62,854 nt of DNA from contig NZ_UXAW01000083.1 in assembly GCF_900609055.1 (NCBI RefSeq), forward strand, positions 1-62,854. The letters are read 5' to 3'. The notes under the pieces were generated by a model. That model made no database searches, had not been told where the DNA came from, and was given only the letters and a program-made list of their open reading frames with translations. Positions within the stretch are counted from its first letter, which is position 1; each line of letters opens with the position of its first letter. This document shows positions 20,103 to 55,247 of this stretch, piece after piece. The position numbers and the translations under genes were made by a program. Origin of the DNA: Pseudogemmobacter humi. GTDB taxonomy: Bacteria; Pseudomonadota; Alphaproteobacteria; Rhodobacterales; Rhodobacteraceae.

Positions 20103-20154
20103 GGGGGTATTTATATCAGGATGAAAGCCCTTTCACCTTGATATAAATACCCCC
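20103..20154. repeat. Palindromic intergenic repeat (REP/BIME-like), full inverted pair
   Basis: Two 25-base arms face each other across CC. Each arm reads GGGGGTATTT-ATATCA-xxx-TGAAAG, with two mismatches between arms. The same arm, single or paired, recurs at 29535, 36089, 41271, 49106 and 50876, always between genes. It lies between recN and purQ and is flanked by GCCGGAGGC, as in other copies. Confidence 0.85.
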
Positions 20155-29534: not shown

Positions 29535-29583
29535 GGGGGTATTTAAGTCAAGGTGAAAGCCCTTTCACCCTGATCCAAATACC
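29535..29583. repeat. Palindromic intergenic repeat, full inverted pair inside the met operon
   Basis: Arms GGGGGTATTT-AAGTCA-xxx-TGAAAG and the reverse complement of a sibling arm (CTTTCACCC, TGATCC, AAATACCC) face each other across CC. It lies in the 283-base gap between the binding-protein and ATPase genes. Confidence 0.85.
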
Positions 29584-29716
29584 CAAGGGGGGTGAGCGCC
29601 GCAGGCGCGAGGGGTGAAGATGCCGTCGCCATTGGTTCAGGCCTGCATTTTCGAGAGCCCCCTTTCCGGCGGACGGACCCGGGCGCGCGCTGCCCGATGG
29701 ATCGAAGGAATGAGAA

Positions 29717-35966: not shown

Positions 35967-36268
35967 GCCCCGGGAAAATCGGCCCGGCCCCCCGCGGGCG
36001 CCGGATGCGCATTCTCGTCAGCAGGCAGCCACGGGCCGCGCTTTGCCCCGCGCAGCAGCGCGGCGGCGCCCCTCCTGCCGTGACGGGGCTTTCATCCTGA
36101 CCCAAATACCCCCCGCGCGGCGCGCAACCGGGCCGCAAGGCCCGGTGGTCTGACCCCGGTGGTCTGACGTTGCGTTTCGCGCCCGATTTCCGGTTGGCAA
36201 CCGCGTCCCGTCCCGGCACATTCGATGAAGCCCCCGGCGGGAGACGGGGGGCGAAGGGGAGGAAGACC
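35967..36268. other. Intergenic region of 302 bases
   Basis: No gene. It holds a palindromic-repeat half copy (36089-36113) and a GC hairpin GGGCC-GCAA-GGCCC with a GGTGGTCTGAC word repeated just after it. The acyl-CoA synthetase ribosome site GGGGAGGAAG is at its right end. Confidence 0.5.
36089..36113 (-). repeat. Palindromic-repeat family, half copy
   Basis: CTTTCATCCTGA-CCC-AAATACCCCC, one arm of the family; followed by GCGCGGCGCGCAA and the GGGCC-GCAA-GGCCC hairpin, a module shared with the copy at 41271. Confidence 0.75.
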
Positions 36269-41270: not shown

Positions 41271-41320
41271 GGGGTATTTGGGTCAGGGTGAAAGGGCTTT
41301 CATCCTGATCCAAATACCCC
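41271..41320. repeat. Palindromic intergenic repeat, full inverted pair
   Basis: 24-base arms (GGGGTATTTGG-GTCAGG-GTGAAAG and its near-complement) around GG, with three mismatches. Upstream is a GC-rich stretch; downstream is the GCGCGGAGCGCAA plus GGGCC-GCAA-GG hairpin module also found after the copy at 36089. Lies between the convergent/divergent borders of purC and the zinc-ribbon gene. Confidence 0.85.
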
Positions 41321-41361: not shown

Positions 41362-42498
41362 TCAGTCCAGCCAGTCGAGGCCGGGCCCGCCGTCGAAGGA
41401 CACCCCACCTTCCTGTGCCAGATACCAGATACCGGCGGCAAGGATCGCCGCCACGGTCGCGGCGAACAGGATCTTCCACACCGACCACGGCCGCTCGCCC
41501 TGGACCTCGCCGGTCTGGCCATTGACGAGGAAGCGGTAGCTCTTGCCGTTGTATTTATAGGCCGCCATCCAGACCGGCAGCAGGATATGCTTGAAGGTCT
41601 CGGCGGAGAACTCGGTCGAGACATTGTCGATCCTCTGCTCGTCGCCGCCGATGTCGCGGCGCACGTCCTGGCGGATGACTTCGGCCATCCGCTCCTTCGC
41701 TCCGGCATCGGCCTCGGCCAGGGGCACCGTATAGCCCTCGGCGGTGAAACCGGCGAGGTAGTCTGGCCGCCAGGGCACCAGCGCGCCCAGATCCCAGGGC
41801 GTCAGCTCGTTCCCGAGCCGGGCGGGCAGCGAGGCCGATCCCATCACCAGCACGTCGTCGAAATCGCGCTCCACCCGGCCCGAGGCGGGGCTCCAGCGGA
41901 TCCGCCGCTCCTGACGGGTCTGCTTCTTGCCGTTCACGGTGACGGTGCGGGTGACGTAATAGGCGTCGCCGCGCTGGCCGCTATAGCGCGAGCGGGTCTC
42001 GGCGTCGAAGGTCCAGAACGGGACATAGACCCCGTTCATCGCCCGGCCGCGGCGGGTGTATTCCAGCAGGCGGTTGGGCGCGAACCACAGGCTGCCCAGC
42101 CATTTCACCAGTTGCCCGCGCGCCTCACGTTCGGAAAACACGAAGGGCACCAGCGCCTGGGGTTTGATCTGCCTTGTCTCGCCGGTACCGGTCACCACCG
42201 GCGTCGCGCAGAACGGGCATTCGGTGGCATGGATGGCGCCTTCAAACTCGATCAGCGCGCCGCAGGAGGTGCAGCGCGTGGTGCGCACCACCTCCATATC
42301 GCTGCCAGACAGGTCGTCGCGCAGCCCGGCGGCGAGGTCGTGCTCTTTCAGCGCGGCATCCCGGTCTTCCAGCGCCGCGTCGGGCAGGTGCTGGACATGG
42401 CCGCAATGGTCGCAGACCAGCTCGCGCTGGCCGGGCGCGAAGCGCAGTTGCGCGCCGCACTGGCTGCATGGCCAGCGATGTTCTCCCGTCTGCGGCAT
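41362..42498 (-). CDS. Double zinc-ribbon membrane protein (YdjG/TFIIB-ribbon-like)
   Basis: 378 residues. Two zinc ribbons at the N-terminus: CSQC/CDHC (11-14, 29-32) and CTSC/CPFC (76-79, 94-97), each CxxC-x14-CxxC. Then a soluble beta-rich part (VYVPFWTFDAETRSRYSGQRGDAYYV) and one transmembrane segment near the C-terminus (about 345-363). This architecture resembles B. subtilis YdjG and proteins often misnamed primosomal helicase-like. It starts 2 bases after the SPFH gene, so the two act together. Its molecular role is unknown; membrane-stress function is inferred from the pairing. Confidence 0.8.
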   Translation of the reverse strand: MPQTGEHRWPCSQCGAQLRFAPGQRELVCDHCGHVQHLPDAALEDRDAALKEHDLAAGLRDDLSGSDMEVVRTTRCTSCGALIEFEGAIHATECPFCATPVVTGTGETRQIKPQALVPFVFSEREARGQLVKWLGSLWFAPNRLLEYTRRGRAMNGVYVPFWTFDAETRSRYSGQRGDAYYVTRTVTVNGKKQTRQERRIRWSPASGRVERDFDDVLVMGSASLPARLGNELTPWDLGALVPWRPDYLAGFTAEGYTVPLAEADAGAKERMAEVIRQDVRRDIGGDEQRIDNVSTEFSAETFKHILLPVWMAAYKYNGKSYRFLVNGQTGEVQGERPWSVWKILFAATVAAILAAGIWYLAQEGGVSFDGGPGLDWLD

Positions 42499-42500
42499 GA

Positions 42501-43604
42501 TCAGCCGGCGGGCGGCGGGGGCGGCGGAACCCGGGCGAAGAGCGGCGCGAGGTCGGTCTCGCCGGCGGGTTTCCAGCCCTCCATCCCGGCGCTCCAGACC
42601 ATGGTGGTGCGGCTCAGCCCGCCCGAGGCCACTATCCCTGCCAGCGCCGCCTCGTCGAACGGGCCTTTGGTGGCGCCGTTCTCGGCGATATGCCATTCGC
42701 GGGCGGCAGGCGGCGGGGGCGGCGGCGTATGCTGCGCGGCGGGAGGCGCGGCGGGCGCCCCCCAGGGCCCCATGTTCTGCGCCATGCCCATCCCGACGCC
42801 GAGACCCGCGCCGGTGGCCATCGCGGAACCCGCGCCGGAGGCGGGGTTGCCCATGGCCTCGGCGGTCTGGAACTGCATATATCTGTTCAGATCGCCCACC
42901 ACGCCCATCGAGGTGCGGCGGTCGAGCGCCTTCTCGACTTCCTCGGGCAGCGAGATGTTCTCGATGTAGAATTCCGGGATCGACAGCCCGTATTCGGCCA
43001 CTTTCGGTCCGATCGCCCCGGCGATCACCTTGCCCAGATCCCCGGTATTCGCCGCCATGTCGAGCACCGGAATCCCCGATCCGGCCAGCACCTGGCTTGC
43101 CGCCTGGACGATGACGTTGCGGATCTGGAGGCTGATCTCGTCGGCGGTGAACTCGCCATCGGTGCCGACCACCTCGGTCATGAACCGCCCCGGATCGGTG
43201 ACGCGCATCGAATAGGTGCCGAAGGCGCGCAGCCGCACCGGGCCGAATTCCGGGTCGCGCGCCATGATCGGGTTCTTGGTGCCCCATTTCTGGTCGTTGA
43301 ACCGGGTGGTGTTGACGAAATAGACCTCGGATTTGAACGGCGACTGAAAGCCGTGGTCCCAGTGTTGCAGCGTGGTCATGACCGGCAGGTTGTTGGTCTC
43401 CAGCATGTAGAGACCGGGGCCGAAGACATCGGCAAGCTGGCCTTCGTGGATGAAGACCGCGGCCTGGCCCTCGCGCACCGTCAGCTTGGCGCCGTATTTG
43501 ATCGCCTGGCCGCGGCGCTCGAACCGCCAGACCATCGTGTCGCGGGTGTCGTCGAGCCAGGAGATGACATCGACGAATTCGCCTTTGAGGAAATCGAAGA
43601 CCAT
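42501..43604 (-). CDS. SPFH-domain protein with C-terminal GYF_2 domain (YdjI-like)
   Basis: 367 residues. Residues about 30-250 are a YdjI-type SPFH/virion-core-like domain (KLTVREGQAAVFIHEGQLADVFGPGLYML ... FRAFGTYSMRV-like strand ... EYGLSIPEFYIENISLPEEVEKALDRRTSMGVVGDLNRYMQFQTAEAM). Then a Gly/Ala/Pro-rich linker and a GYF_2 domain (about 310-357, EWHIAENGATKGPFDEAALAGIV ... MVWSAGMEGWKPAGE), ending in PPPPPPAG. No transmembrane segment. SPFH proteins form membrane-bound oligomers. Its zinc-ribbon partner follows at 2 bases; the DUF4241 gene ends 100 bases upstream. Confidence 0.85.
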   Translation of the reverse strand: MVFDFLKGEFVDVISWLDDTRDTMVWRFERRGQAIKYGAKLTVREGQAAVFIHEGQLADVFGPGLYMLETNNLPVMTTLQHWDHGFQSPFKSEVYFVNTTRFNDQKWGTKNPIMARDPEFGPVRLRAFGTYSMRVTDPGRFMTEVVGTDGEFTADEISLQIRNVIVQAASQVLAGSGIPVLDMAANTGDLGKVIAGAIGPKVAEYGLSIPEFYIENISLPEEVEKALDRRTSMGVVGDLNRYMQFQTAEAMGNPASGAGSAMATGAGLGVGMGMAQNMGPWGAPAAPPAAQHTPPPPPPAAREWHIAENGATKGPFDEAALAGIVASGGLSRTTMVWSAGMEGWKPAGETDLAPLFARVPPPPPPAG

Positions 43605-43704
43605 GGCCTCAGCCTTTCTGTGATGCCGCGCAGGCCACAGGATAACGAGGACGCGGCGGGATTGAAGGGGAAAAGCGCGGGCGGCGCGGCTTGCCGCCTG
43701 CGGC

Positions 43705-44376
43705 TCAGACGCCGGTGCAGGATGCGGGCAGCAGCCAGTCGCCGGCCTCGTTCCGGCCCATGAAATCGGCGTAGATCGCCACCACCTGGCCGGTGCCCGA
43801 TTGCAGCGCGACGACCGGATAGCCGCCGTCGCCCCAGCCCGAGGACGACATCGGAATCACGGTGCCATCGGGCAGGGGCAGCAGATGGCCGACCACCCAT
43901 ATCTCGCCGATCAGCTCGTGGAACCAGTCGTTGTAGAGATCCTTGCCGGGGCCGAGCACCGTCTGCGCCCGCCCGAGGGCCTCGCTCATCGGCTGGTCGA
44001 GGAAGGACACGAGCCCGGTGTCCACCCCGACCGTCGCTACATCGGCGCCGCACAGGACCGGAGCGTCGGAAAACACCAGCATCGCCTTGGAGACGCGCTG
44101 TTCCGCCGGGTCGATGGCGAGGATGAGCCTCGCCTCGCCCGAAGGGGCTGCGATGAAGGGCCAGCCGTAACCCGGATCATAGGTCAGCGGATCGACGACG
44201 ATCACCCCGCCGGGGGCGACGGCGACCGGCCCCGCCGTGCGGAAGTCCAGCGGCAGGGCGCTTTCCCCGGCCATCCAGGCCAGCGCGCCGGTCGTGCCCG
44301 GATCGGCGATGGGGCTGCCGGGCATATCCGCCAGAGCGGGGCCCGCGCTCAGCAGCAGGGCAAGGAGGCGGATCAT
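43705..44376 (-). CDS. DUF4241 domain secreted protein
   Basis: 223 residues with a short signal peptide (about 1-16, LLALLLSAGPALA). The C-terminal two-thirds match DUF4241: VGVDTGLVSFLDQP, YNDWFHELIG, SSSGWGDGGYPVVALQSGTGQVVAIYADFM. Two Cys (APVLCGAD and ASCTGV) may pair. The function of the family is not established. Its ATG overlaps the DUF2927 stop (ATGA). The periplasmic location links it to the envelope operon. Confidence 0.8.
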   Translation of the reverse strand: MIRLLALLLSAGPALADMPGSPIADPGTTGALAWMAGESALPLDFRTAGPVAVAPGGVIVVDPLTYDPGYGWPFIAAPSGEARLILAIDPAEQRVSKAMLVFSDAPVLCGADVATVGVDTGLVSFLDQPMSEALGRAQTVLGPGKDLYNDWFHELIGEIWVVGHLLPLPDGTVIPMSSSGWGDGGYPVVALQSGTGQVVAIYADFMGRNEAGDWLLPASCTGV

Positions 44377-45332
44377 GCCCCGCCGCCCACCAGCCGGGTG
44401 GCCAGCGCGCGCACGATGGGGCGGGCCTCGGCCTCGGTCATGCCGGGGCGCAACTCGCGGCTGTAGAGGATCTTCAGCAAAAGCTCGTCCTGCTTCGTCA
44501 GCAGCGCGAATTCCTCGTCGTCGTTGAAGATCGACGGGCGCGCGCGCGGGCTGTCGTTGGCAAGCCCCAGACCTTGCGCGATTTCCTCGTGGAAACAGGA
44601 CTGGCGCAGCAGGTCCGGGTGTTCGGCGCGCACCACCGCCACCGCGCGGGTGTAGCGGCCGGTGTTCCCCTCGGACAAGGCGTAGACCATGCAATAGGTG
44701 GTGGGCGACATCCGGGTGACATCGGACACATCCTGCGGCGACAGGCCCGGCATGTCGCGCCGGAGCGCCGGCCCAAGCGCCTCGCGCTCGTCCTCGGACA
44801 CCACATGCAGCACGAAATTGCCGCCCTGGTCGACGAGGCTGATCGGATGGCCGGTGATCTGCGACAGCCGCGCAAGATACGAGGCGATCCGCGCCCGGTC
44901 GGTCGCGCGCCGCTCCGCCGGTACCGAGGCGCCGAAGCGGATCTGGAAGCGCACCGGCACTTCCCAGCGGCGCAGGACCGATGTGGTCTCGCCGCGCACG
45001 AAGCCGCCGCCGGTGCGGGAATATTCGTCGTAAAGCGCGATACGGACGAAGTTTTCGGCCAGCATCCGGTCGTCGAACGGGGTATCCGGCCCGCCGCCGT
45101 CGGTGCGCAGCAGGCCCTGCGACAGCAGCGTGCGCTGCACCTCGGCGTAATAGGCGCGGGCCGCGGCGCTGCGCGGCGTGTCCGCGGCCGGGGCCGCCGG
45201 GCGCTCGGGGCGCGGCGGCGGCGCGGGGATGCGCGCCTGGTCGGGCGCACCGGCGGGCACGCAGGCCGACAGCCCCGCCGCCAGCAGGGCAGCGGCGGGC
45301 CATGTGTTCAGCAGGGGCCGGGCAGGTTTCAT
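44373..45332 (-). CDS. DUF2927 lipoprotein with metzincin-like core
   Basis: 319 residues. Signal peptide with lipobox LSAC (about 21-24), then a Pro-rich spacer and the DUF2927 domain. The HEEIAQGLGL stretch followed by ARPSIFNDDEEFALLTKQDELLLKILY looks like the active-site helix, Met-turn-side segment and downstream helix of zinc metalloproteases, but a full HExxHxxGxxH is absent. The stop overlaps the DUF4241 start, and its own ATG overlaps the telA stop, each by 4 bases. Confidence 0.82.
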   Translation of the reverse strand: MKPARPLLNTWPAAALLAAGLSACVPAGAPDQARIPAPPPRPERPAAPAADTPRSAAARAYYAEVQRTLLSQGLLRTDGGGPDTPFDDRMLAENFVRIALYDEYSRTGGGFVRGETTSVLRRWEVPVRFQIRFGASVPAERRATDRARIASYLARLSQITGHPISLVDQGGNFVLHVVSEDEREALGPALRRDMPGLSPQDVSDVTRMSPTTYCMVYALSEGNTGRYTRAVAVVRAEHPDLLRQSCFHEEIAQGLGLANDSPRARPSIFNDDEEFALLTKQDELLLKILYSRELRPGMTEAEARPIVRALATRLVGGGA

Positions 45333-46504
45333 GCCTGGGGCGGGGGCGTGATCTGCCGCGCGCGCGCCGAGGCGAGGGTGTCGCGCAACTCGGATTCCAT
45401 CTTCTGCAATTCCTCCTCGGCCCGGGCGCGGCGCGCCTTGCCCTCATCGGCGATGGCGAGGCTTTCGTTGATCGTGGCGATCAGGGTGTCGTTCGCCTTC
45501 TTCACCGTCTCGATGTCGAAGACGCCACGCTCCATTTCCTCGCGCACGGTGCGGTTGGCCTCCTGGAGGTTCTTCGCATTCGCTTCCAGCAGTTCGTTGG
45601 TCAGATCATTGGCGCCGCGGATCGATTCCGCCGCCTCTTTCGAGCGCTGGATCGTCACCGCCTGGGCAAGCTGGGTTTCCCACAGGGGCACGGTGTTCAC
45701 CAGCGTCGAGTTGATCTTGGTGACCAGCGATTTGTCGTTCTCCTGCACGAGGCGAATGGAGGGCAGCGACTGCATCGTCACCTGGCGGGTGAGTTTCAGG
45801 TCATGCACCCGGCGCTCCAGATCGTCGCGGGCGGCGCGCAGGTCGCGCAGCTCCTGCGCCTTCAGCACCTTGTCGTTCTCGGGCGCGGCGGCCACTTCGG
45901 CCTCTTTCGCCGGGATGTCCTGCTCATCGGCCTGTTTCAGCCGCGCCTCGCCCGCGGCGATATAGAGGCCAAGCTCGTCGTAGAATTCCAGCGTACGGGC
46001 GTAGAGGATATCGAGCGACTTGATATCCTTCAGAAGTTTCGTCTCGTGGCCCAGCAGTTCCTGGGTCACCTTGTCGATCTGGCTCTGCACGTCCTCGTAT
46101 TTCGCGACGAAATCCGCAAAGGGCGCGGCGCGGCCCAAAAGGCGCTCCCACCATGAGGTTTCGCGGCGCAGATCCAGCTCGCTGGTGGAAAAGCCGCGGA
46201 TCGTGGTGACGATCTTCCTGAGGCTGTCGCCCGCCGGGCCGACATCCTTGTTCTTCACGTCCTGGAGCATTTCCTGGCTGATCACCTGCAATTCGGCCTG
46301 GGCGGACGAGCCGAAGGAGATGATCGACTGCGTGCTCGACAGATCCAGTTCCGCCATCCGGCGGCGGATTTCTCCGGCTTTTTCCGGTGCGGCGCGCTCC
46401 AGCGTCACGACCTCGCCCACCGGCTCGGGCAGGATCACCGCCGAGACTTTCTCGACCTCGCTCAGCAGGGCTTCGGCTTCGCTGCGGTTGGTGTCGTTCG
46501 CCAT
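45329..46504 (-). CDS. Toxic anion resistance protein TelA family
   Basis: 391 residues, wholly alpha-helical with long coiled coils; SSTQSIISFGSSAQAELQVISQEMLQDVKNKDVGPAGDSLRKIVTTIRGF and WWERLLGR are family hallmarks, as is LKLTRQVTMQSLPSIRLVQENDKSLVTKI. TelA/KlaA proteins were named for tellurite resistance, and B. subtilis YaaN and YceH belong here; the biochemical role is unknown. Starts 10 bases after xpaC; overlaps the DUF2927 gene by 4 bases. Confidence 0.92.
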   Translation of the reverse strand: MANDTNRSEAEALLSEVEKVSAVILPEPVGEVVTLERAAPEKAGEIRRRMAELDLSSTQSIISFGSSAQAELQVISQEMLQDVKNKDVGPAGDSLRKIVTTIRGFSTSELDLRRETSWWERLLGRAAPFADFVAKYEDVQSQIDKVTQELLGHETKLLKDIKSLDILYARTLEFYDELGLYIAAGEARLKQADEQDIPAKEAEVAAAPENDKVLKAQELRDLRAARDDLERRVHDLKLTRQVTMQSLPSIRLVQENDKSLVTKINSTLVNTVPLWETQLAQAVTIQRSKEAAESIRGANDLTNELLEANAKNLQEANRTVREEMERGVFDIETVKKANDTLIATINESLAIADEGKARRARAEEELQKMESELRDTLASARARQITPPPQA

Positions 46505-46514
46505 GATACTGGTC

Positions 46515-47417
46515 TCACACTTGGGGCGGAGTGGTGCCGCGGGTGGGGGTCTCGGCCTTCAGCCGGTCGCGCAGGACCGCGATCTCCACGTCGAGCTGAT
46601 CGCGGTCGTTGCCGAGCAGCTTTTCCGAGCGCCCGGCGAAGGTGGTTTCAAGATCGCTCAGCAGCGTCTCGTAATCGGCGCGGGCCTTCGGATCGCGGTT
46701 CGCGGCCCAGAGACCCGCGAATTTGATCGTCGCGTCGCGCGCGCCCTCAAGATAGACCGAGAGATATTTGCGCGCCGCGGTCAGATCGCCGGGATCTTCC
46801 TCGACCCGGCGAAACAGGGCGCGGGCCTCGCTGGCGAAACGCTCGACCCGGGCTTCCAGCTGGCGGTCGCGGGTGCGCAGGATCGCGTCCTTCATCTGCG
46901 CCAGAACCTGCTCGGCCCCGGCGATGGCGCGGGCGACGCGGTCGGTCTGGAAGCGGTCGATCCCCTCCATCCCCTTGTCGCGCATGGGGTCCAGCCCGAA
47001 GGCGCCCAGATGCAGCGCCGCGCCGGCAAGGGCGTAGAGCGCGGGGTAAACCGAGACGCCATGCGCGATCAGCCCGCCGGTGAACAAAGCCGCCCCGGTG
47101 GCCACCGCCCCGAACAGGATGCGCGGAATCGCCGGGCGGCGGGCGAGGCGGCGGGCGTCGAATGCCGCGCGGGCGCGCATCCCCTCGCGCGTGAGCCAGG
47201 CCGAAAGCACCAGCATTCCCCCGGCGGCAAGACCCATCAGCATCTCGGCCGGGGTGCCGCGAAAGGCGGGGAACAGGAAGGCGAAGGCGGTCAGGAACAG
47301 GATGCGCGCGCGCCAGAGCCCTTTGGGCTTCTCATCGCCCGGGGCCGCGCGGGGGACGGGTGTGTCGTTGCCGGTGGGGTCGGGGCTGAATTTGCCGCCA
47401 AAGCGCCTTGACGCCAT
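46515..47417 (-). CDS. XpaC-family membrane protein (5-bromo-4-chloroindolyl phosphate hydrolysis family)
   Basis: 300 residues. A charged N-terminus, two hydrophobic hairpins (about 37-75 and 100-140), then a helical soluble domain (RFQTDRVARAIAGAEQVLAQMKDAILRTRDRQLEARVERF ... RKYLSVYLEGARDATIKFAGL). This is the XpaC pattern; XpaC genes commonly precede telA-type genes, as in B. subtilis xpaC-yaaN. The ATG shares its A with the stop of a 27-codon gene upstream (TGATG), pointing to translational coupling. Confidence 0.85.
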   Translation of the reverse strand: MASRRFGGKFSPDPTGNDTPVPRAAPGDEKPKGLWRARILFLTAFAFLFPAFRGTPAEMLMGLAAGGMLVLSAWLTREGMRARAAFDARRLARRPAIPRILFGAVATGAALFTGGLIAHGVSVYPALYALAGAALHLGAFGLDPMRDKGMEGIDRFQTDRVARAIAGAEQVLAQMKDAILRTRDRQLEARVERFASEARALFRRVEEDPGDLTAARKYLSVYLEGARDATIKFAGLWAANRDPKARADYETLLSDLETTFAGRSEKLLGNDRDQLDVEIAVLRDRLKAETPTRGTTPPQV

Positions 47418-47500
47418 CAGATGCCCCCCGAACCGGCGACGTAGAAAACCAGCGCCACCAGAAGCGCCAGCGAGAGGGTGCGAAGGCCGGATTCGGACAT
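47417..47500 (-). CDS. 27-residue membrane peptide coupled to xpaC
   Basis: ATG at 47498-47500 and TGA at 47417-47419; 27 residues: a short polar start (MSESGLRT), a hydrophobic stretch LSLALLVALVFYVAGSG, and end GGI. GGAG (47506-47509) lies five bases before the ATG. The stop overlaps the xpaC start as TGATG. The size, membrane segment, ribosome site and coupling support a real single-pass peptide; its role is unknown. It may be a subunit of the XpaC complex or a leader that sets xpaC translation. Confidence 0.7.
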   Translation of the reverse strand: MSESGLRTLSLALLVALVFYVAGSGGI

Positions 47501-47613
47501 GGATGCTCCGCCACGGTCGGTTTCCCTGCGATCCTAGCGAATGGGCCGCAGGCTTGCCAGCGCGAGCGCTGCGGCATGGCGGGAATTTTCCATCTTCCCG
47601 CCATATGCCGCCA

Positions 47614-49081: not shown

Positions 49082-49133
49082 CCGGGGGCCTTCTGCCCCC
49101 GGACCCCCGAGAGTATTTAAATCAGGGTGAAAG
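49082..49133. repeat. GC hairpin plus palindromic-repeat half copy in front of a deaminase gene
   Basis: CCGGGGGCC-TTC-TGCCCCCGG hairpin (49082-49102), then an arm GAGTATTT-AAATCA-GGG-TGAAAG (49106-49131) that runs up to the deaminase start region. Confidence 0.7.
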
Positions 49134-50875: not shown

Positions 50876-50909
50876 GCTTCATCCTGACCCAAATACCCCC
50901 GCCGGAGGC
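50876..50909 (-). repeat. Palindromic-repeat family, half copy
   Basis: GCTTCATCCTGACCC-AAATACCCCC followed by GCCGGAGGC, as at 20154. Lies in the 234-base divergent gap between the UPF0173 gene and gatC. Confidence 0.75.
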
Positions 50910-54623: not shown

Positions 54624-55020
54624 GCGCGGATGGCCGGATGACCGCGGGGGCGGTGACGCCCGCGAGGAAAGTCCGGACTCCATGAAGTAAGGGCGCCGGG
54701 TAACGCCCGGCCGGGGCAACCCGAGGGAAAGCGCCACAGAGAAGAGACAGCCCCGCTTGCCGGGGTGATGGTGAAACGGTGGGGTAAGAGCCCACCGCGC
54801 GACTGGCAACAGAAGCGGCACGGCAAGCCCCGCCCGGAGCAATGCCGAATAGGGGCCTCGCGCGGGGGCCGGTGGGGCAACCCATACCGCCCGCAGGGAC
54901 GCTTCAGCCCGAGAGGCCCGGGTTGGCAGCCAGACCCTTTCCGTAAGGAAAGGGCAAGAGGAATGGTCATCCAGGGCGGTCCGCCGCCTGGACAGAATCC
55001 GGCTTACAGGCCATCCGCGC
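54624..55020 (+). ncRNA. rnpB: RNase P RNA (M1 RNA, type A)
   Basis: About 397 bases. The ends form the P1 helix: GCGCGGATGGCC (54624-54635) pairs with GGCCATCCGCGC (55009-55020). Universal core blocks are seen: GAGGAAAGTCCGGACTCC near 54664, the ACAGAA words, GAGAGGCCCGGGTTGG and AGAGGAATGGTCATC near 54956, and CAGAATCCGGCTTACAGG near the 3' end. Catalytic RNA that matures tRNA 5' ends. Exact ends may differ by a few bases. Confidence 0.95.
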
Positions 55021-55247
55021 GTTTTCGACGGGCCGGGCAGGGGGCTCTGCCCCCGTCCTCGCTTTGCCCTTGTCCCTGGGTGCCGCAGGGCCGCGTCCAC
55101 CTGCTTCCCGAACCGATGGCGAAACCGGCAGACGGCCCGGGATATCTGAGGACAGAAGATCAGCGGATACGGCTTGCCGTGTTGCTCTCGGTTCGGGATC
55201 ATCCCACGAGGGCGCGTCCTGAAGAGGCGATAAGCTCATTTTCTGTC

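Follow-up and report, generated by a model that had tools for sequence, protein, structure and literature searches.

The stretch analyzed here (the window) comprises 62,854 nucleotides (nt) of contig NZ_UXAW01000083.1 of Pseudogemmobacter humi. Seven open reading frames (ORFs) on the minus strand span positions 41362-47500 and encode, in reading order, a microprotein, XpaC, TelA, a DUF2927 lipoprotein, a DUF4241 protein, an SPFH protein and a double zinc-ribbon protein (ZnR). The coordinates are shown in Table 1. The successive intergenic distances are -1, +10, -4, -4, +100 and +2 bases. ORF coordinates, measured gaps and Pfam searches confirmed the seven genes, their strand, junctions and domains as given in an earlier note on this DNA. 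The arrangement is more than chance, because the gene order is kept in about 90 genera and in three other families. The names of TelA and XpaC are old and uninformative, referring to toxic anion resistance and to indolyl phosphate hydrolysis.

Table 1. Genes of the locus in reading order, followed by the promoter-like elements
Feature	Position	Strand	Basis
Microprotein, 27 residues, single-helix membrane	47417-47500	-	hydrophobic ORF, conservation, pN/pS
XpaC, membrane protein	46515-47417	-	PF10112, 1.8e-24
TelA, no transmembrane helix	45329-46504	-	PF05816, 5.4e-105
DUF2927 lipoprotein, motif HEExxQGLGLxND	44373-45332	-	PF11150, 1.4e-66
DUF4241 protein, signal-peptide-like start	43705-44376	-	PF14025, 7.5e-9, 36.4 bits (cut-off 27)
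SPFH (Band_7_1) with C-terminal GYF_2	42501-43604	-	PF13421, 8.2e-102; GYF_2, 3.9e-17
ZnR, one C-terminal transmembrane helix	41362-42498	-	zinc-ribbon models below curated cut-offs; 8 Cys
Promoter-like element CTGGCAAG-N16-TAGGAT, upstream of microprotein	47531-47560	-	cross-locus comparison
Second promoter-like element TTCAAT-N16-TATCCT, before SPFH	43639-43666	-	100-base gap, close-relative comparison

Conservation of the locus

The family sample consisted of 100 Rhodobacteraceae genomes, one per genus and each at least 90% complete, including the window genome (G000). The 88 other TelA loci and the window (n=89) were scored with profiles built from those loci. Wider samples covered 192 genomes of the class and 249 of the phylum. 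A further set of loci (genome_contigs) overlaps with the family set in some genomes.

TelA was found in 89 of the 100 family genomes, and a strong full-length Band_7_1 SPFH protein in exactly those 89; the window TelA is the sole one of its genome. Neither protein was found in the other 11, among which G054 has a weak partial Band_7_1 match and G088 an SPFH fragment with ZnR at a contig start. ZnR is present in 90 genomes, DUF2927 in 96, mostly with a second copy elsewhere. At 79 of the 89 loci xpaC-telA and SPFH-ZnR lie on the same strand within 6 kb. The joining of the two modules proposed in the earlier note thus holds well outside the window genome, the modules being regular neighbors in related genomes, and the observation is general in the family. 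Among 80 named relatives, a set from which records very near the window may be missing, the closest TelA is that of Pseudogemmobacter hezensis (88%).

Each junction is kept in most loci. The xpaC gene adjoins telA on the same strand in 87 of 89 loci; the stretches fetched for L028 and L094 gave no xpaC. The telA and DUF2927 genes are same-strand neighbors in 83; DUF2927 was not found in five, and L047 was separately seen to have the normal order. DUF2927 and SPFH are same-strand neighbors in 80 (one partner was not found in the other nine), SPFH and ZnR in 81 (one or both were not found in the fetched stretch of eight). The ten non-joined loci include five true splits inside long contigs (L013, L025, L060, L079 and L081), and all five of these genomes retain both halves elsewhere. 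Two more (L062, L078) end at contig edges, and L028 and L094 are those in which xpaC was not found. In L030, counted apart from the clear splits, ZnR is on another contig and the contig starts 2.6 kb past SPFH.

The earlier note had placed two periplasmic proteins of the DUF2927 and DUF4241 families in the operon. The first stands as a core member within the family, absent from the locus in L022 and L087, where the remaining genes are in place. The second does not: DUF4241 is an accessory insert and not a core gene, since it occurs in only 5 of 89 loci and lies between SPFH and ZnR in L061. Some family loci hold further, unrelated inserted genes.

Outside the family, six genomes of the class sample have a strong Band_7_1 match, each together with TelA. 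Four of the six, from three other families (L125-L128), carry xpaC, telA, SPFH and ZnR consecutively, with DUF2927 missing from the joined locus. Outside the class, in L236, the gene after xpaC-telA encodes a GYF_2 protein that matches Band_7_1 weakly. In the phylum sample the modules are mostly separate: 17 genomes outside the family have SPFH (counted at E 1e-20 or better), 5 of them with TelA. Four of these five have TelA and SPFH at distant places or on separate long contigs; the fifth, G353, has its TelA on a contig of only 5951 bases. SPFH-ZnR pairs without adjacent TelA occur on a Vibrio plasmid and a Tsukamurella plasmid, and also in f149 genomes having no TelA match. Paracoccus ferrooxidans carries a telA-DUF2927-SPFH-ZnR block on a 1.46 Mb plasmid; no adjacent xpaC and no XpaC profile match were found for this block. 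With the modules mostly separate elsewhere and no DUF2927 in the joined loci outside the family, the core is a pair of older modules, later joined, and DUF2927 looks like an addition within the Rhodobacteraceae.

The upstream neighbor of the window locus encodes a pseudouridine synthase with an S4 domain, which we take to be RluB; this flanking gene is often retained (136 loci). Downstream lie a pfkB kinase gene and a SAICAR-synthetase-like gene, presumably purC. The correlation between TelA and SPFH evolutionary distances (partial r 0.46 over 38 loci) was set aside as evidence, the control pair rluB-frk (r 0.03) being too poor a yardstick. A gene for a small membrane protein is inserted between SPFH and ZnR in 11 loci (e.g., L015, L039, L053); 12 such ORFs group by BLAST, and by eye the protein resembles cytochrome b561. 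Upstream of the microprotein, L218 (8056-8901) and nine other loci encode a 281-residue protein which looks like the XpaC N-terminus by eye and gave no Pfam match in the L218 copy. TelA of Paracoccus sp. IB05 (L142) matches that of the window at 86%; TelA and the promoter-like element before SPFH group L142 with Pseudogemmobacter.

Protein features and transcription signals

The 27-residue peptide, counted by the earlier note among the seven genes, is a real, conserved coding gene. Of the 87 family loci with xpaC, 81 have a hydrophobic ORF of 22-36 residues that ends where xpaC starts; the genome_contigs set has one in 77 of 78 loci with xpaC, the ORFs in both sets having been chosen for hydrophobicity. 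Gapless 27-residue copies gave a pN/pS (ratio of nonsynonymous to synonymous change) of 0.27 in frame versus 1.28 and 2.35 in the other frames; the values for a 29-residue group were 0.27 versus 1.21 and 2.55. The 27-residue form has no Pfam match, and the microprotein was not found at the four joined loci of other families. In the window its stop overlaps the xpaC start (TGATG), and at most loci no more than 3 bases separate the stop from the position at which xpaC should start by comparison with the window, an arrangement that points to translational coupling of the two genes.

By hydropathy (threshold 1.6), the microprotein, XpaC (100-118) and ZnR (343-361) have one transmembrane-like helix each; TelA and SPFH have no such helix. 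The eight cysteines of ZnR (C11, C14, C29, C32, C76, C79, C94, C97) form four CxxC pairs, invariant in 28 sequences including the window. Residues Cys24, H248, E249, E250, Q253, G256, N259 and D260 of DUF2927 are likewise invariant in 28 sequences. A metalloprotease reading of DUF2927 was not adopted, because the second His of HExxH is missing and a paralogue outside the operon (L259) has Gln in place of the motif His. No convincing solved relatives were found by sequence for TelA, DUF2927, ZnR, XpaC or DUF4241; cytochrome b562 matches to TelA (best E 0.048) were judged to be helical noise. The GYF_2 domain of SPFH sits between two PPPPPP runs and matches the solved AglX domain 7z3c_A (1.1e-6). 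Across 25 sequences, P295, P296, P298, P360-P362, P364 and many residues of the GYF domain do not vary. A literature search for GltJ and GYF yielded no paper. Proline-rich segments are what GYF domains bind, and since this domain is flanked by poly-proline runs, self-linking of SPFH through them is possible.

Both promoter-like patterns were picked after viewing the sequences, the upstream one after an enrichment scan. In many roseobacters the upstream element has the form TTCCCCCTAGCAAGC with CCTAAGTT. The enrichment concerns its first half (CTGGCAAG, TAGCAAG or a near variant), which lies upstream in 47 of 153 non-redundant loci, against a mean of 4.8 and a largest value of 14 in shuffled sequences; 41 of the 47 matches are 51-80 nt before the microprotein start. 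Upstream of the microprotein, patterns for sigma-E, RpoH, EcfG, CpxR and sigma-70 gave nothing above the largest of 50 shuffles, and no sigma-70-type consensus was found in the region (shuffles give 0.5). The second element, as TTCA[AC][TA]-N16-TAT[CT][CT]T, occurs in the window and its close relatives L141, L142 and L143 only, i.e., in 4 of 76 gaps between DUF2927 and SPFH, 51 of which are at most 60 bases long. No terminator-like pattern was found in the 100-base gap. Because of this element in the gap, the SPFH-ZnR half may also be transcribed separately in the window genus, from a putative internal start. For most of the family, transcription as one operon is the likely arrangement, to which the window genus plausibly adds an internal start.

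A dispersed palindrome with 24-nt arms (GGGTATTTGGNTCAGGNTGAAAG) gave nine half-site matches (at most 3 mismatches) at six places in the window: 41271-41320, 20105-20152, 29537-29584, 36089-36111, 49111-49133 and 50876-50898. None was obtained in 100 shuffles. The full copy just after the operon may serve as its terminator. An RNase P RNA class A gene is located at 54626-55022 (+).

Function of the locus

No match to PspA (PF04012) was obtained in the operon or in the whole window genome, which bears out the earlier note's remark that a PspA-like protein is missing. In the family sample PspA exceeds the cut-off in 20 of 100 genomes: 18 belong to the 89 that have TelA, and 2 to the 11 that lack it. 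The operon therefore neither needs nor excludes PspA. As a sequence relative of PspA, TelA was rejected at profile level (hhalign probability 1%), although the two may still have a fold in common.

The earlier note had pointed to two B. subtilis operons in support of a stress role. Both of them, xpaC-yaaN and pspA-ydjGHI, are listed in the sigma-W regulon (PMC3498285), which backs that reading by analogy. YdjI is a soluble SPFH protein whose recruitment to the membrane needs YdjG and YdjH, and YdjI is itself required for bringing PspA to the membrane (PMC8581546). Elsewhere in the Bacillota, the Listeria xpaC-telA pair lmo1966-lmo1967 is about 1.5-fold up under a bacteriocin (PMC12791056), xpaC is 7-fold up in an Enterococcus liaR mutation (PMC10269926), and a table on membrane-protein overproduction in Lactococcus gives xpaC as 10.3-fold and telA1 as 3.4-fold up (PMC3139573). 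A metaproteome of marine plastic biofilm includes TelA among the proteins expressed by Paracoccus (PMC11962581). The mechanism of TelA is still called unknown (PMC12791056), and TelA and XpaC go unmentioned in the sections consulted of a Psp survey (PMC11237479). No published account of the joined locus was found in the open-access literature; most subscription papers lie outside that search.

By analogy with these systems, the gene cluster is probably a membrane-care machine working without the usual PspA. In its specific form we put this forward tentatively: the locus may encode one PspA-free scaffold for surveillance and maintenance of the inner membrane, the counterpart of two stress modules which B. 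subtilis keeps apart. We infer the scaffold function because of the Bacillota parallels, and with it the physical interactions, the topology, TelA in the role of PspA and induction by envelope stress. Soluble SPFH-GYF would oligomerize, with GYF and the two poly-proline runs linking neighboring subunits or rings, and the zinc-ribbon protein, of YdjG-like architecture, would tether it at the membrane. XpaC would anchor TelA, with the microprotein as a small transmembrane companion arising from coupled translation, and TelA would build a sub-membrane layer in place of PspA. The DUF2927 lipoprotein would supply contact with the periplasm or outer membrane in Rhodobacteraceae, and DUF4241 would be an optional add-on. 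A bolder version, which we consider doubtful, holds that TelA, XpaC and the microprotein form a PspA-independent membrane-repair coat with SPFH-GYF/ZnR as its dedicated recruiter, the whole being a complete machine with a lipoprotein arm to the outer membrane.

The scaffold reading is favored because the same 89 of 100 genomes hold TelA and SPFH and the splits keep both halves, because the joined core recurs in three more families, with the L236 arrangement outside the class and the telA-to-ZnR block on the Paracoccus ferrooxidans plasmid, and because no PspA passes the cut-off in 71 of the 89 genomes with TelA, together with the Bacillota papers on stress regulation. Several observations weigh against it. 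The 18 other TelA-bearing genomes do have PspA, and TelA is unrelated to it in sequence. Two of the 89 family loci have no xpaC found beside telA. SPFH outside the family is usually without TelA, and proximity was seen in none of the five phylum genomes with both. The promoter-like element before SPFH hints at separate control in the window genus, and minus-strand terminator-like patterns lie inside the microprotein (47473-47455) and DUF4241 (44096-44079) genes.

Part of this evidence bears on a second explanation, which we regard as possible if rather unlikely. XpaC-TelA and SPFH-ZnR would be independent envelope modules with separate jobs, sharing a locus by ancestral linkage and convenient co-expression. 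The five clear splits all break between xpaC-telA and SPFH-ZnR, each module occurs without the other (SPFH-ZnR without adjacent TelA on the two plasmids and in f149 genomes, XpaC-TelA with a solute-binding/VWA protein in other alphaproteobacteria), the window genus has the promoter-like element between the halves, and flanking rluB is often retained just as well. However, independent modules fit poorly with the identical presence and absence of TelA and SPFH in 100 genomes, with a joined core amid different surrounding genes in three more families, and with a block kept together on a plasmid.

A third explanation involves TerC. Fifteen of the 89 family loci and 13 of the 80 genome_contigs loci have a TerC gene on the same strand, at most about 2.6 kb upstream and preceding the microprotein and xpaC; these 28 include L184 (1930-2751), L012, L017, L170 and L182. 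PF03741 was tested on the L184 copy, and the other copies were grouped with it by BLAST. The window operon is without TerC, and three TerC genes lie elsewhere in its genome. The locus might act as a barrier of a reduced Ter-like type, directed at toxic compounds or phage, with TelA as a sub-membrane layer, TerC beside it in some genomes and SPFH tuning the membrane. TelA is described as a component that builds sub-membrane structures in Ter systems and is present in jumbo phages (PMC7824862), and loss of lmo1967 (telA) function by mutation in Listeria reportedly raises sensitivity to both nisin and tellurite (cited in PMC12791056). Such a barrier is nevertheless improbable: the six larger proteins gave no match to PADLOC models at E ≤0.001 (a ZorA match to TelA, at 0.0044, and an NCBIfam MAD4 match to XpaC, 12.8 bits versus a cut-off of 160, are both weak), the operon has no TerB, TerD or VWA protein, and a mobile defence island would not be expected to show a single strong TelA in each genome across 89 of 100 genera. 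Least credible is a metalation or secretion-quality unit, in which TerC-type export and XpaC-TelA would help exported proteins to fold or to acquire metal, DUF2927 being the client or a protease-like partner: the TerC neighbors, the metalation of exported enzymes by TerC proteins in B. subtilis (PMC10550928) and the conserved HEExxQ motif leave room for a secretion or metal role, but the window operon has no TerC, other families' joined loci lack DUF2927, a paralogue carries Gln for the motif His and no convincing solved DUF2927 relative was found.

The value of the locus is that in about nine of ten sampled genera it ties TelA/XpaC to an SPFH protein and a zinc-ribbon protein whose counterparts in B. 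subtilis recruit PspA, so that the question of whether TelA acts as PspA becomes testable, and the family includes laboratory strains. It further provides a conserved microprotein that has no family entry, and it connects TerC to the same place.

Comparison with known systems

As in Ter systems, TelA is present and TerC lies upstream in a minority of relatives. Unlike in Ter systems, the seven window proteins include no TerB, TerD, TerF, VWA, phosphoribosyltransferase, HAD or signal-making enzyme.

XpaC and TelA are shared with other alphaproteobacterial operons. Unlike the window, these operons hold a PF13531-VWA protein (tested in L134) and have no SPFH-ZnR match beside TelA. The solute-binding and VWA protein is encoded at L134 3977-5548 (Pfam was run on L134 only), with similar ones seen by eye in L129, L138 and L140. 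The same operons encode a protein of about 370 residues without Pfam match (run on L138 only).

The resemblance of ZnR to YdjG is one of architecture, in the double zinc ribbon and the transmembrane segment. As in B. subtilis pspA-ydjGHI, a soluble SPFH protein is encoded beside a double zinc-ribbon protein with one transmembrane segment. The differences are that the window locus is without PspA, that no TPM family protein (YdjH) is among the seven, and that XpaC-TelA, the microprotein and DUF2927 are added. The window SPFH ends in GYF_2 with poly-proline and not in a zinc ribbon (PMC11237479).

As in the Bacillota xpaC-yaaN (telA) pairs, a PF10112 gene adjoins a PF05816 gene in the window, whereas here the pair is joined to SPFH-ZnR and DUF2927, with the microprotein in front. 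What is new here is that two known modules are stably joined, together with the microprotein and the lack of PspA in this setting.

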